Shown here: positions 56,782 to 60,513 of the stretch, piece after piece
Position numbering within the stretch: position 1 is the first letter of the stretch
Layout of the letters: the number at the start of each line of letters is the position of its first letter
From: an uncultured Lachnospiraceae bacterium
GTDB lineage: Bacteria; Bacillota; Clostridia; Lachnospirales; Lachnospiraceae
DNA length: 60,758 bases
Direction: 5' to 3'
Assembly: GCA_947570615.1 (NCBI GenBank)
Contig: CANOVJ010000020.1
Span: forward strand, 1 to 60,758
Program-made: the position numbers and the translations under genes
The notes under the pieces: generated by a model
What the model saw: the letters and a program-made list of their open reading frames with translations, nothing else
The model's database searches: none
What the model was told of the DNA's origin: nothing

Positions 56782-57366
56782 TTAATTTGCATATTCTCCA
56801 ATTCCACTTAATTTTTTAATATCCTCATTACTCCAATATTGATTACTCCAACGATAATATACGTCTTTACGTTTCTTAAATATTCTGAACGGCTCCTGTG
56901 TATTATCATATATATGCAGGATATCGCAAATCTCAACGAACTTTGGAATCAGAGCAAGCGCTTTATCATATCCTGATCTGATTTTTTCTTCCGGAACGCC
57001 ATGCCCTCCCAGCGCTTCTCCTGCATTCACTCTTGCAACATTGATATCTGCATTGCATGTTGAAACATAAATTCCTCTGATAAAATATCCCTTTTCCTTC
57101 GCTTTTTACAGTAGCAGTAGATTCCTGTCAGTAGACAGCACGGTCTCAAATGTAAAATCTTTTCTGTCCACTATCATGCGTTCCCTTAATTCTTCCGCTT
57201 TTATAGCTGCCTCCAGATCCGTACACAATGTAGTCCTTTTTATATCGTCTGCATTTATATATTCGCCTCCAATCTTTGCCATTCGGGTTATTGTAGATTT
57301 GCCGCTTCCATTTGGACCTGCAAAAACAATGACTTCCGGAAGTCTTACCACATCATTTCCTGACAT
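56782..57366 (-). pseudogene. Zeta-type toxin gene broken by one in-frame stop
   Basis: The first part starts MSGNDVVRLPEVIVFAGPNGSGKST (Walker A) with INADDIKR and FTFETVLSTDRN, as in zeta/PezT UDP-N-acetylglucosamine kinase toxins. At 57106-57108 there is a TAA where relatives have a residue such as Gln, after which the same frame continues with KAKEKGYFIRGIYVSTC and YDNTQEPFRIFKK to 56782. So one C-to-T change in a CAA codon would explain it. The start overlaps the antitoxin end by 14 bases, with GGAGG upstream. A possible one-base deletion near 56782 extends homology to ERKQVEQLLMLFPG. Confidence 0.75.
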
Positions 57367-57943
57367 ACTCGCGCCTCCCGTCCGGATATTCAAGGTACGC
57401 CTTCTGAGTTTCATCGTCATATCCTGCAACCGGTAAACCCTTTATTTTCCTTACTTCATTATCAATCCTTATAGATTCCCTGAATCTTACCGTCAACTCC
57501 TCGTCAGAGAGTCCACAGGTGGAATCCAATTCACCTCCACCGACACCTTCCTTCTGCGCAAACTGTGCGATGCAGTATTCATAAGTACAGCCGAGAAGGT
57601 CTTCGCTCTCCGTGGTGTTGCTCATATCTATGTTATTTGTGAAGATGTCCACGACATCGCCAAGCTCGCGTTTGTCGAGATCCGGTGCTCCATCTGGCAT
57701 CTTCCGGAACAAAGAAAACATTCTCCATCGTGTAAGCATCACGAAATCCTCAATTGCACTTTTTCCGCTCTGAACCCACTCGTCAATCTCGGATCGCTTG
57801 AACTTCCATAAACGACCGATCTTATGCGCCGGGATCTCGTTCTTCGGATTTTTAATCCAACTGCGAAGAGTAACCGGCCTGATGCCCAGATAATTTGCAG
57901 CTTCTTCAAGATTTATATAGTTGTCCGTGTTATTTATTTCCAT
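57353..57943 (-). CDS. Chimeric ORF: excisionase-type HTH, HsdM fragment and zeta antitoxin
   Basis: This open 196-residue frame looks like three proteins joined. Residues 1-63 are an excisionase-type helix-turn-helix (AANYLGIRPVTLRSWIKN, IPAHKIGRLWKFKRSEIDEW) of the kind encoded beside type I restriction genes. Residues 88-138 (KRELGDVVDIFTN, LLGCTYEYCIAQFA, KEGVGGGE) match an internal part of the HsdM methylase just before its FYTP motif. Residues 142-196 (ESIRIDNEVRKIKGLPVA, AYLEYPDGRREYV) match the antitoxin found with zeta toxins in Clostridia. GAGG supports the ATG at 57943. It probably arose by deletions; whether the product still folds is unknown. Confidence 0.65.
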   Translation of the reverse strand: MEINNTDNYINLEEAANYLGIRPVTLRSWIKNPKNEIPAHKIGRLWKFKRSEIDEWVQSGKSAIEDFVMLTRWRMFSLFRKMPDGAPDLDKRELGDVVDIFTNNIDMSNTTESEDLLGCTYEYCIAQFAQKEGVGGGELDSTCGLSDEELTVRFRESIRIDNEVRKIKGLPVAGYDDETQKAYLEYPDGRREYVRK

Positions 57944-58127
57944 AAGCATCCTCGTACAAATACAGTTTATGCGATTTCAACTCTATACTGTCACATGAGA
58001 ATCGAAAATTCAGTGATATTTAATGATATTTTCGTCAGGTTGGTTGATACTCCATCCTGTGTTGCAAGAGCCCCTGCTCACGGAACCGCACCCCCACGGA
58101 CGGTAATACCACGGCATTGTCTGCACC

Positions 58128-58549
58128 GCCGCCGCCAAGATATCCGCAAAATGCCCCGAATCAGCCGCAGGCATGCCGAAAAGCCGTCAAAGCATCTGTC
58201 ACGATATCGGAAGTCGTCGCAAAATCCTCCCCGGAAGCCGCCGCAAGGCTCATCACGCCATCAATACCGGAAAGCATTTCCTCCGTCTTCCAGCCGGCCA
58301 TCGCCATATAGTTCATGGCTTCCGCCGCCGTCTTCAAGGCCTCCAGCTTTTCCTTTGCCGCCGAAACCGCCTCGCCCAGGAGCTTATGCTTCTGCGCCAA
58401 AAGTTCCGTATTCCCCGGATCAAGCTTCAAAAGCTTCTCCACGTCCTTCAGCTGCTGGGTGCTCCCGACCTGCGTGTTCACGCCCTTCAAGGCAGTCTGC
58501 AGCTTCGTGGTATCGCTGCCGATCTCGATCGCGATACCCTTTCCGCCAT
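58128..58549 (-). pseudogene. Phage tail tape measure gene remnant
   Basis: The frame encodes GKGIAIEIGSDTTKLQTAL, LKDVEKLLKLDPGNTELLAQKHKLL and later WKTEEMLSGIDGVMSLAAASGED, all typical of the N-terminal part of siphophage tape measure proteins. The ribosome binding site and ATG (58549) are present, but one base is missing after the third codon, an internal segment is lost, and an extra T near 58178 shifts the frame out of DALTAFGM. Homology ends at about 58128. Bases 57950-58127 hold no other gene that I recognise. Confidence 0.75.
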
Positions 58550-58658
58550 ACTGTGTCCCCTTTCTCAATCCGGAATATTAAGGCAACCAAAAAAGAGCCT
58601 ATCCCCCAGCCCTTTAAAAGCTGTTCCTGAATTTTCCATGAACTTTTTGAAAAAACAA

Positions 58659-58687
58659 TTGATTTTTTTCCTGTTTTGTCATACAGT
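58659..58687 (+). promoter_or_regulatory. Promoter of the DUF3800 RNA-gene unit
   Basis: TTGATT (58659-58664) and TACAGT (58682-58687) are exactly 17 bases apart. The predicted start is near 58694, just before the structured leader. Confidence 0.5.
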
Positions 58688-58693
58688 AAGGGT

Positions 58694-58772
58694 AACGAAA
58701 TCAATGATTTCATTTGGGCTGGTCGTAAGACCCAGGTCCATCACGGGCGGGGAAGTTCCCCGCCATTTTTTT
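58694..58772 (+). ncRNA. Structured leader RNA ending in a terminator upstream of DUF3800 gene
   Basis: Three stems follow in about 80 bases. GAAAT/ATTTC (58697-58711) is the first. The second is CTGGTC (58719-58724) with GACCCAG around a GTAA tetraloop of the GNRA type. The third is the perfect terminator stem GGCGGGG/CCCCGCC (58746-58764) with seven T residues. The DUF3800 start codon follows 27 bases later. Structured RNA families upstream of DUF3800 genes (named DUF3800-I and onwards) have been described by comparative genomics with unknown function; whether this one belongs to them needs a covariance search. Confidence 0.55.
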
Positions 58773-58798
58773 ACAAATACTGCAGAGGTGACAATATA

Positions 58799-59476
58799 TT
58801 GAAAGAACTCAGTATCTTTATTGACGAATCAGGTGACTTTGGGGAATATGCAGCCCACTCACCCTATTACATCATCACAATGGTATTCCACGATCAAAAC
58901 AGTGATGTCCAGCCTGCGGTCACTAAACTGAACCAGAGGCTTTCCTACCTGAACCTGAATGATCTCTGTATACATACCGGTCCAATCATCCGCAGGGAAG
59001 AAATTTATGCCGGGATGTCCATTGCTGAACGCCGACGCATTTTCAACAAAATGGTTGCGTTCATACGGCAGATCGATATCCGTTATAAATGCTTTTGCAT
59101 AGAAAAGAAACATTTTTCCGATGTCATCGAAGCAACCGGGAAACTATCCAGGCAGATATCCCGGTTCGTCAATGACCACTATGATGAATTCCTTGCGTTT
59201 GATGATGTTAAAATTTACTACGATAATGGACAGGTCGAAGTCAGCAAAATACTTTCTTCTGTTTTTAACGCATTACTTCCAAATCCAATCTTCCGTAAAG
59301 TGATGCCGGTGGAATACAAACTCTTCCAGGCTGCCGATCTGTTATGCACAATGGAACTGGTCAGGCTCAAACTGATAAACAGCCAGCTCTCCAAATCCGA
59401 AATAATGTTCTTTGGGAACATCCGCGACCTGAAGAAGAACTACCTGAAACCGCTCAGCAAAAAGGAATGGTCATAG
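58799..59476 (+). CDS. DUF3800 domain protein
   Basis: A 225-residue protein that starts at a TTG (58799) with AGAGGTG eight bases upstream; the longer open frame runs back through the leader RNA and is not real. It begins KELSIFIDESGDFG, the signature DES(G) motif of DUF3800, and ends with LFQAADLLCTMEL, another hallmark, suggesting an RNase H-like nuclease fold with acidic catalytic residues. No function is established for the family. It lies antisense between the phage tail chaperone and tape measure remnants, and is the only intact-looking gene in the decayed prophage, so it may be a phage-borne accessory (moron) gene. Confidence 0.85.
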   Translation: MKELSIFIDESGDFGEYAAHSPYYIITMVFHDQNSDVQPAVTKLNQRLSYLNLNDLCIHTGPIIRREEIYAGMSIAERRRIFNKMVAFIRQIDIRYKCFCIEKKHFSDVIEATGKLSRQISRFVNDHYDEFLAFDDVKIYYDNGQVEVSKILSSVFNALLPNPIFRKVMPVEYKLFQAADLLCTMELVRLKLINSQLSKSEIMFFGNIRDLKKNYLKPLSKKEWS

Positions 59477-59501: not shown

Positions 59502-60047
59502 TCAGAATGCGTCAAACTCCGCCTGCCCGGCTATCTGACTGTAGTATTTATCCGCCCCTTCATCATTCCTGCTCTCAACGAACATCTCATTCACCAGCCC
59601 GATGGTGAGCAGGTCAAGGTCTCTGATAGAAAGCCCGACCTGCACACACCTCAGCATAAACAGATCCGTCGTCATCTCCCTGTCAGTTGCGCGAAGTTTT
59701 TTAGCCTCCACATCGGTCTTCATGTTCAGTCCCCAAAACTCAATGATCTTCGGCAGCACCTGATAGATGCTGAAAGTATTGAACTCATCCAGCCATTCCT
59801 CCGGGCTGTACGGAATGCTCCCGTCAGCGTGCTTCGCCATGATATAAGCGATATTTTCAAACATCTCCAGCGAAAACATGTCCAGGCTCGCCCCCCTCTT
59901 CGCTGTTATCCCCGACCGCCTTCTCCAAAGCCGCCAGGTCTTTATAGATATCCCTCTGGAACTTCATCCTGTAAATCCCAGGGGCGCCGCGCTCGTCCTG
60001 AAAGCAATCTCTTTCCCGTCAATCTCAATCTTCTTCATCATGCTCAT
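59502..60047 (-). pseudogene. Phage tail assembly chaperone gene with two frameshifts
   Basis: The start MSMMKKIEIDGKEIAFR (ATG at 60047, GGAG upstream) and the long C-terminal part MFSLEMFENIAYIMAKHADGSIP...EFDAF belong to one tail assembly chaperone gene. Two one-base shifts split it: one near 59985, and one extra G in a G-run near 59890. Between them the frame reads MKFQRDIYKDLAALEKAVGD. This gene normally precedes the tape measure gene; here the DUF3800 unit lies between them on the other strand. Confidence 0.75.
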
Positions 60048-60157: not shown

Positions 60158-60334
60158 TCATCTCCCTTTCCATATACTCGCCTCTGCGGCCTTCACAGCC
60201 GCCCTCTCGGCGTCCGGTGTGATCACCAATCTGCCGTCCTCGCAGGTGACGGAGATATAATCCCCAATATCAAACCCTGGCTCTTTCAGCCACATACCCT
60301 TCAGCATAATTGTGGGCGTTTCCTGATATGCCAT
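60158..60334 (-). CDS. SymE-like toxin, truncated at both ends
   Basis: The core PTIMLKGMWLKEPGFDIGDYISV followed by EDGRLVITPD is the SymE-type fold (AbrB-like), known as an SOS-linked toxin in enterics and common in Clostridia. The start MAYQE lacks a ribosome binding site, because upstream DNA is replaced by recombinase sequence, so the true N-terminus may be lost. One missing base near 60180 changes the C-terminus; corrected, it would end EMKALQKEEG at 60132. No RNA antitoxin is obvious on the other strand. Confidence 0.65.
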   Translation of the reverse strand: MAYQETPTIMLKGMWLKEPGFDIGDYISVTCEDGRLVITPDAERAAVKAAEASIWKGR

Positions 60335-60336
60335 AA

Positions 60337-60513
60337 GGGCACACCCACGCCACAATCCTGATCGAATCCGGTGCTGACATGAAGAACGTGCAGACCCGGC
60401 TGGGCCACTCCAACATACAGACCACCTTGCAGACTTATGTGCATGATACGGAGGTCATGGCGACACGTTCCGTTGATCTCTTTGAACAGGCGGCTGGCCG
60501 GAAAACATCATAG
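60337..60513 (+). pseudogene. 3' fragment of a tyrosine recombinase (integrase)
   Basis: The frame GHTHATILIESGADMKNVQTR and what follows ends at TAG 60511-60513. It contains the HTHAT and LGHS blocks and the catalytic Tyr in LQTYVHDT of phage-type integrases. The upstream codon is a stop and homology begins abruptly two bases from the SymE start, so this is a deletion or recombination junction. The remainder of the integrase is absent. Confidence 0.8.

Follow-up and report, generated by a model that had tools for sequence, protein, structure and literature searches.

A DUF3800-XI RNA-gene cassette carried as phage cargo: a candidate RNA-controlled nuclease module with solo RNA copies in large phages

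Results

Architecture of the cassette

The window (the whole stretch of 60,758 nt analysed here, from an uncultured Lachnospiraceae bacterium) holds on its forward strand a compact cassette in which a promoter, a structured RNA, a terminator-like hairpin and a DUF3800 gene follow one another. This is the self-contained unit, in an order like that of type III toxin-antitoxin systems, which an earlier reading of the letters alone (the sequence-only reading) had proposed. The promoter, TTGATT-17-TACAGT at 58659..58687, is weak, with 8 of 12 consensus positions, and being below the threshold of the promoter scan it was missed there. Three hairpins follow on the same strand. P0 (58697..58711; 6 bp, GAAATC-AAT-GATTTC) lies outside the Rfam model. 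P1 (58715..58740), known from the Rfam match and the alignments, has a 2-nt bulge, a nearly invariant sequence and a GNRA loop, GUAA, at 58725-58728. P2 (58746..58772), supported by a terminator scan, the fold and the alignment, resembles an intrinsic terminator, its stem at 58746-58764 being followed by ATTTTTTT. Downstream of the RNA are AGAGGTG (58784..58790), which resembles a ribosome-binding site, and the DUF3800 gene (58799..59476), which starts at TTG, is intact and encodes 225 aa.

The covariance-model search of the leader suggested by the sequence-only reading returned RF02975, the DUF3800-XI RNA, at 58715..58761 with 65.8 bits against a gathering cut-off of 37.8 (E 2.3e-12 for the whole window), and this was the only Rfam match over gathering cut-off in the entire window. 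The family reportedly originates from the 224-motif survey of Weinberg and colleagues. The region 58690-58778 folds with z = -3.70, and none of 200 shuffles was as stable. Both the structured leader with a GNRA-loop stem and the intact TTG-initiated gene described in the sequence-only reading are therefore borne out; the protein scores 32.6 bits with PF12686 (DUF3800), over the curated cut-off of 21 (E 1.6e-7 in Pfam). DUF3800 was the only Pfam family over cut-off in this protein, with no TPR match, and searches against PADLOC, NCBIfam and PHROGs gave no matches. The best solved structures were not significant by sequence (E 0.28 and 0.5). No tandem array of the RNA was found at 58560-58860.

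Two elements of the proposed unit needed qualification. The idea of an own promoter gains from relatives, in which its position is conserved: a promoter with at least 9 of 12 consensus positions stands at the corresponding place in 81% of 69 intact units versus 16% of shuffles, although the window copy itself reaches 8. The order RNA-terminator-gene holds as far as a terminator-like stem with T-run is present at 58746-58772, but the scan found 2 terminator-like sites in a 1-kb stretch where 1.3 are expected by chance, so that the weight rests on homologues and not on the scan.

Prophage surroundings and insertion site

The cassette lies antisense between two phage tail genes, as the sequence-only reading had stated. 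On one side is a tape measure protein remnant (58161..58568, reverse strand) with an internal deletion of about 380 bp near 58320-58329, which leaves an ORF of 135 aa compared to 945 aa in the related locus L157. On the other side an ORF of 125 aa (59502..59879, reverse strand) points its stop at the 3' end of the cassette; we take it to be a tail assembly chaperone from its position before the tape measure gene, its PHROGs being annotated as function unknown. By our reading of the letters, the N-terminal part of this chaperone appears to be out of frame. The earlier statement that all neighbouring phage genes are frameshifted is thus too strong, an HTH gene (198 aa) and the chaperone ORF of 125 aa being open. 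Beside the tail remnant, at 57109-57949 of the reverse strand, an HTH_17/excisionase-like gene overlaps a P-loop ORF with weak AAA_33/zeta-like resemblance. The prophage remnant has a SymE toxin-like domain (PF08845) at its edge (60161-60355, reverse strand).

We compared related phages with and without the insert, a check that had also been suggested. Among viral contigs with a related chaperone, 80 of 266 were kept, and both flanks were visible in 55. The gap between chaperone and tape measure gene was at most 300 nt in 34 of these and longer in 21, with fillings (named by eye) that include RHH-PIN pairs, DinJ/YoeB-like pairs and a transposase. In three further viral contigs (L236, L246 and L241) an intact, antisense DUF3800-XI cassette belonging to this clade stands at the same place, with protein identities to the window of 83%, 83% and 76%. 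The insertion site is therefore a cargo hotspot of related phages, in which the cassette recurs as cargo and is not a one-off, in agreement with the earlier suggestion of phage cargo. No gene family lies next to more than 3 intact units, and the informative one is the tail gene in these same three contigs.

Linkage of RNA and gene

The genome of the window (112 contigs) has four RF02975 sites, whose sequences differ from one another. Two of them, in the window and on contig C3, are followed by an intact DUF3800 gene; at the site on C23 only the first DUF3800 codons are left, and at L038 (G000:C22) a broken nucleotidyltransferase-like gene, which by eye resembles that of L065, lies 48 nt after the RNA. 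Elsewhere, in L065 (G273) and L113 (G288), an NTP_transf_2, MntA-like gene replaces DUF3800 at 46 and 90 nt after the RF02975 RNA, respectively. A gene with a CdiA C-terminal-like domain (L324:526-900) starts 19 nt after a solo DUF3800-XI RNA, and the solo RNAs L094, L316 and L325 have in common a conserved stretch directly downstream (GCGGCGGACGTCTGCGGACTATGCC...), perhaps another element.

In a survey of 397 genomes of the family, RF02975 was matched in 60 and DUF3800 in 75. The RNA search gave 85 rows, of which 81 were analysed for the downstream gene; the other four are L141 (intact gene), L154 and L155 (coding-sequence-like by eye) and G120:C6:133558 (left out). At 29 of the 81 sites a full-length DUF3800 gene of the clade lies directly downstream, while the remaining 52, some at contig ends, have a partial gene or none. 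Starting from the protein, there were 89 PF12686 rows, including all 29, and 34 of them are beside an analysed RNA site. The remaining 55 were checked by clade profile (38 + 1 within L075 + 16) and contained four full-length clade members, all with a recognisable RNA: two unlisted variants, one below cut-off and one with P2 only at a contig end. In total, every full-length clade gene (33 of 33) is accompanied by the RNA, which for one is partly visible at a contig end; a truncated clade gene, L153, is without it. The full-length gene thus never occurs without the RNA in these genomes while the RNA can stand alone, and the DUF3800 homologue lacking the leader, which would have spoken against the sequence-only reading, was not seen among full-length clade members. 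At 40 loci of other DUF3800 clades we found the DUF3800-I RNA twice and the DUF3800-VII RNA twice; the Rfam DUF3800 RNA families encountered were I, VII, IX and XI, in a series numbered up to XI.

A pattern scan of named genomes added at least 117 stretches, of which 80 were kept. Its taxa were Lachnospiraceae, Oscillospiraceae and Erysipelotrichaceae and, as metagenome bins or isolates, Spirochaetota, Fibrobacterota, Chloroflexota and Alphaproteobacteria. Acetatifactor muris and Eubacterium oxidoreducens are cultured carriers among them. Genome, scan and viral loci together gave 174 sites, or 159 after removing 15 duplicates: 70 with an intact gene, 30 with a partial gene and 59 without gene (five of them viral), 18 of the non-intact sites being near a contig or stretch end. 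The 70 intact proteins have 221-228 aa, except one of 217 aa cut by a stretch end. The start codon lies 20-95 nt past the RNA in 69 of the 70 units and 133 nt past it in one with two stacked RNAs. Extra, partly degenerate RNA copies adjoin DUF3800-XI units, in tandem or inverted, in L264 (1641-3159), L306 (1051-1134) and L099 (5235-5316).

Structure and covariation of the RNA

Neither P0 nor the last part of the P2 3' arm is in the Rfam model. We built a covariance model including P0 from 37 sequences. In 72 distinct rows from intact-gene loci (4 of the 74 intact-locus matches are the extra RNA copies in L264, L306 and L099), 73, 97 and 99% of cells are paired in P0, P1 and P2, respectively, and both partners have changed in 20 of the 24 pairs. 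The covariation score was 0.353, compared to 0.126 after shuffling and at most 0.102 after sliding. Covarying structure is thus conserved in homologous leaders, whose absence would have counted against the sequence-only reading. Among 59 gene-less rows the score was 0.432 versus 0.173 shuffled, with 76% of P0 and 98% of P2 paired, so that gene-less copies, fitted to the model, keep their pairs as well as intact ones.

Since these alignments were fitted to the structure, P0 was also tested independently of the model. Of 69 intact units, 65% have a stem of at least 6 bp beside P1, as do 41% of 59 gene-less copies (five viral), with a background of 12-14% after shuffling and 13% in a control region. 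Where the -10 box of an intact unit ends 20-40 nt upstream, P0 is present in 31 of 38 cases; where the promoter is closer, it is present in 2 of 13 (p 3.7e-5). This comparison excluded five intact units whose promoter lies farther upstream than 40 nt. P0 thus tracks promoter distance, as expected for a transcribed hairpin. RNAalifold on a plain MAFFT alignment did not find P0. On the fitted and independent tests P0 is a covarying extra hairpin outside the Rfam model. The 3' end of the cow-rumen-3 RNA (RF03083) resembles P1; a search with that family gave no matches in the 397 genomes and none in the controls either.

Selection, co-divergence and transfer

Between the window gene and twelve clade-C relatives (L236 and L246 among them being near-copies of each other), pS is 0.75-0.94 and pN 0.09-0.20. 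RNA identity to the window is 93-98% in nine of them and 89, 87 and 70% in the others, the last being the most distant relative. Synonymous sites are saturated and both protein and RNA are conserved, which supports the earlier hint of selection and extends it to the RNA (87-98% identity in 11 of 12). Nine residues are invariant in 39 sequences: D9, E10, D13, H31, H59, R65, E67, D142 and D180. The RNA subtype tracks the protein clade: subtypes assigned by hand from P2 and P1 signatures change 13 times on the protein tree, where the minimum is 9 and the shuffled mean 46.7, and none of 200 shuffles was as low.

Clade C includes Fibrobacter and Treponema bins within otherwise Bacillota and viral members. 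The whole unit seems to be transferred, since phyla are mixed in the tree, with the reservation that bins can be contaminated. Units up to 98% identical across genera share only a stretch that begins near the -35 box and ends at the stop or some 30-50 nt past it; closer relatives (L040/L258/L269 and L236/L246) have more common flank. No clear terminal repeats were seen at these boundaries. We take the unit to be cargo moved by some form of recombination, and probably not a transposon.

Gene-less RNA copies in viral records

Three DNA patterns retrieved 28 viral records, 25 of them with RF02975 over cut-off; a fourth pattern, for subtype B, gave none. Three records below cut-off were set aside (L370, L372 and L379 in G414, G416 and G423), of which G414 (35.4 bits, 91 kb, a tRNA at a distance of about 600 nt) may hold a real RNA. 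Among the 25 records, DUF3800 is over cut-off in five, partial in two and absent in 18, including all eight that exceed 50 kb (64.6-184 kb). Comparing the window protein with those large records found nothing, in a comparison run without positive control, and since the viral records are fragments (none rated at least 90% complete) the gene could lie off the contig. A DUF3800 peptide pattern found nothing in viral contigs, which reflects a limit of that method because the DNA patterns did find the gene. Two short queries of the INPHARED isolate phages gave no convincing RNA match.

The 18 gene-less viral records correspond to 13 distinct copies, which include relatives (L369 and L376 have common flanks). 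They were detected via P1, which favours copies with a good P1. P2 is present as a hairpin of at least 6 bp in all 13, with paired letters differing in several. Intact bacterial units have a T-run after P2 in 50 of 67 cases, these copies in 4 of 13 (p 0.0036). In the viral matches with and without gene (24 distinct rows, including a few weak ones), 6 of 7 P2 pairs are changed on both sides and 95% of cells are paired. Because P2 is kept by paired changes though the T-run is mostly lost, the P1-P2 part seems to act in trans beyond termination.

In 6 of the 13 copies (L238, L367, L369, L371, L376 and L380) tRNA genes of the same strand lie within 150 nt of the RNA; among bacterial sites a same-strand tRNA within 300 nt occurs at 2 of 151 (p 1.8e-6). 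In L238/L245 and L371 the RNA is inside stretches with 20 or more tRNA genes, and L369/L374 is another of the loci with a gene-less RNA in or beside phage tRNA genes. A terminase was matched in 14 of the 28 records, and in the related records G400, G403, G404 and G408 the RNA lies about 2.8 kb before it. Phage families near the RNA in L376, L371, L365 and L380 include a tail protein, homing endonucleases and an exonuclease. The terminase matches of G399 and G424 each contain two in-frame TAG codons, and G424 also has a tRNA with CTA anticodon; by these letters, both phages may recode TAG.

Gene-less copies in general show a sign of decay, a promoter of at least 9 of 12 being present in 56% compared to 81% of intact units, and have a weaker P2 where they were selected by P1 alone. 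The bacterial ones probably include both relics and RNAs that are still active. That solo bacterial RNAs are functional antitoxins is only partly supported, with decay signs in P0 and the promoter.

Discussion

Proposed function and its alternatives

We propose, giving it about even weight, that the cassette is an RNA-controlled nuclease module resembling type III toxin-antitoxin or abortive-infection systems and that the RNA copies of large phages are decoys. By its layout, one promoter would give an RNA of about 80 nt (P0-P1-P2), with transcription mostly stopping at the P2 terminator, and occasional read-through past P2 would yield the DUF3800 protein. This putative RNase H-fold nuclease would recognise its own RNA subtype by the P1/P2 part and be held inactive by excess RNA, until phage infection disturbs the RNA supply and frees it. 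Prophages and other mobile DNA would carry the module as cargo, and in large phages the P1-P2 RNA without the gene, often next to tRNA genes, would serve to keep the nuclease bound.

The most serious alternative, which we consider unlikely though worth keeping in mind, makes the RNA an activating or guiding cofactor and DUF3800 plus RNA an effector ribonucleoprotein, with the phage copies being decoy cofactors or captured inhibitors. The obligatory pairing and co-divergence of RNA and gene would fit equally well here, and the available parts of two papers describe an RNase H fold for DUF3800 and its association with CRISPR V-A2 and VI-F loci (PMC10910872, PMC12669027). However, P1 and P2 hardly vary and the variable part, P0, is a hairpin, which leaves no obvious guide-like segment, and a terminator between RNA and gene is more in keeping with dosage control of an antitoxin.

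That the RNA is a cis-only leader, an attenuator of its own gene, perhaps via protein binding (autoregulation), and with no neutralising role, we consider less probable still. A terminator-like P2 and a start codon 20-95 nt past the RNA in 69 of 70 units would suit it, but the gene-less phage copies, which preserve the structure, mostly lack the T-run and in several cases lie by tRNA genes, point to action in trans. The decay seen in many gene-less copies could also mean ordinary phage cargo, with the RNA as a promoter-terminator leader of no RNA-specific function and the solo copies as relics; compensatory change in P0, P1 and P2, above shuffled levels with and without gene and present in phage copies as well, makes this very improbable. 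Finally, a minimal transposable element with DUF3800 as transposase and the RNA acting like a bridge or omega RNA, as the sharp ends near -35 box and stop of near-identical units across genera (98% in the pairs L072/L074 and L085/L086), several internally deleted copies retaining both gene ends and the extra RNA copies beside three units might suggest, was dropped as hardly credible because 64 units show no clear excess of terminal repeats (inverted or direct: 2 versus 0.8 expected and 2 versus 1.2), no common end motif is visible by eye and no genome holds near-identical copies, those of the window's genome differing and the closest same-genome pair being 90% identical over 156 nt (G301).

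Returning to the RNA-controlled module, we would tentatively go further, with less confidence than in the module itself: DUF3800-XI may be a new RNA-neutralised nuclease defence, which several apparently different large gut and rumen phages would counter with the subtype-matched antitoxin RNA alone. By eye, the phage RNAs L239 and L242 are of A-type and L380 has an H-type P2. The available part of one paper proposes that phages counter tRNA-cutting defences in a tRNA setting (PMC10264068), and together with the tRNA-gene setting seen here this hints that DUF3800 may attack tRNA. In the portions consulted of the DUF3800 literature (preprints and most subscription journals being outside the search), no function is given for the associated RNAs, so for Rfam's DUF3800-named series the gene-less phage copies provide a concrete and cheap test. 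Should the RNA neutralise the nuclease in trans, this would account in one step for a putative defence family that is widespread, for the RNA antitoxin of that family and for a viral counter-measure.

Comparison with known systems

Relative to the sequence-only reading, the RNA is now a named Rfam family, P0 is an additional hairpin, the insertion site is a cargo site in many related phages, and large phages hold gene-less copies. The window RNA shares P1, most of P2 and the position upstream of DUF3800 with Rfam RF02975; gene-less phage copies and the tRNA-gene context are absent from the literature consulted on the family, in the parts that were accessible. The TPR-DUF3800 accessory proteins of type V-A2 and VI-F CRISPR loci have a DUF3800 domain with a predicted RNase H fold, with a catalytic rearrangement according to the accessible part of the first report (PMC10910872, PMC12669027), whereas the cassette protein is stand-alone, of about 225 aa and without TPR match in Pfam. 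RNA-linked transposons (IS110, IS200/IS605, OMEGA) have defined ends, target duplication or an end motif, which were not found in the cassette.

The resemblance to type III toxin-antitoxin systems drawn by the sequence-only reading is partial. ToxIN, CptIN and TenpIN have the order RNA-terminator-toxin and an RNA that co-diverges with the toxin, as the sections available of one study describe (PMC5086642), and the cassette, as judged from its letters, has promoter, RNA, terminator and gene in this order as well. In contrast to the tandem-repeat antitoxins of type III its RNA is not repeated in tandem, and in place of a toxin of the ToxN superfamily, to which no match was found, it has DUF3800, a distinction based on profile searches. 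A phage-borne antitoxin-like RNA suppressing the toxin is a known form of mimicry for ToxI, according to the accessible text (PMC3475682). By analogy, the nearest tested precedent is AbiF/RCd22 of a Clostridioides difficile prophage, for which the part of the paper at hand describes an RNA that neutralises the toxin by direct binding (PMC12373285). Its protein is unrelated (Abi_2, linked to Cas13), and neither the abiF motif RF03085 nor Abi_2 has a match in the window. Like the cassette, AbiF/RCd22 is prophage-borne and, in the same available part, consists of a promoter, a two-motif RNA, a Rho-independent terminator, an AGGTGA ribosome-binding site and a toxin gene (PMC12373285).
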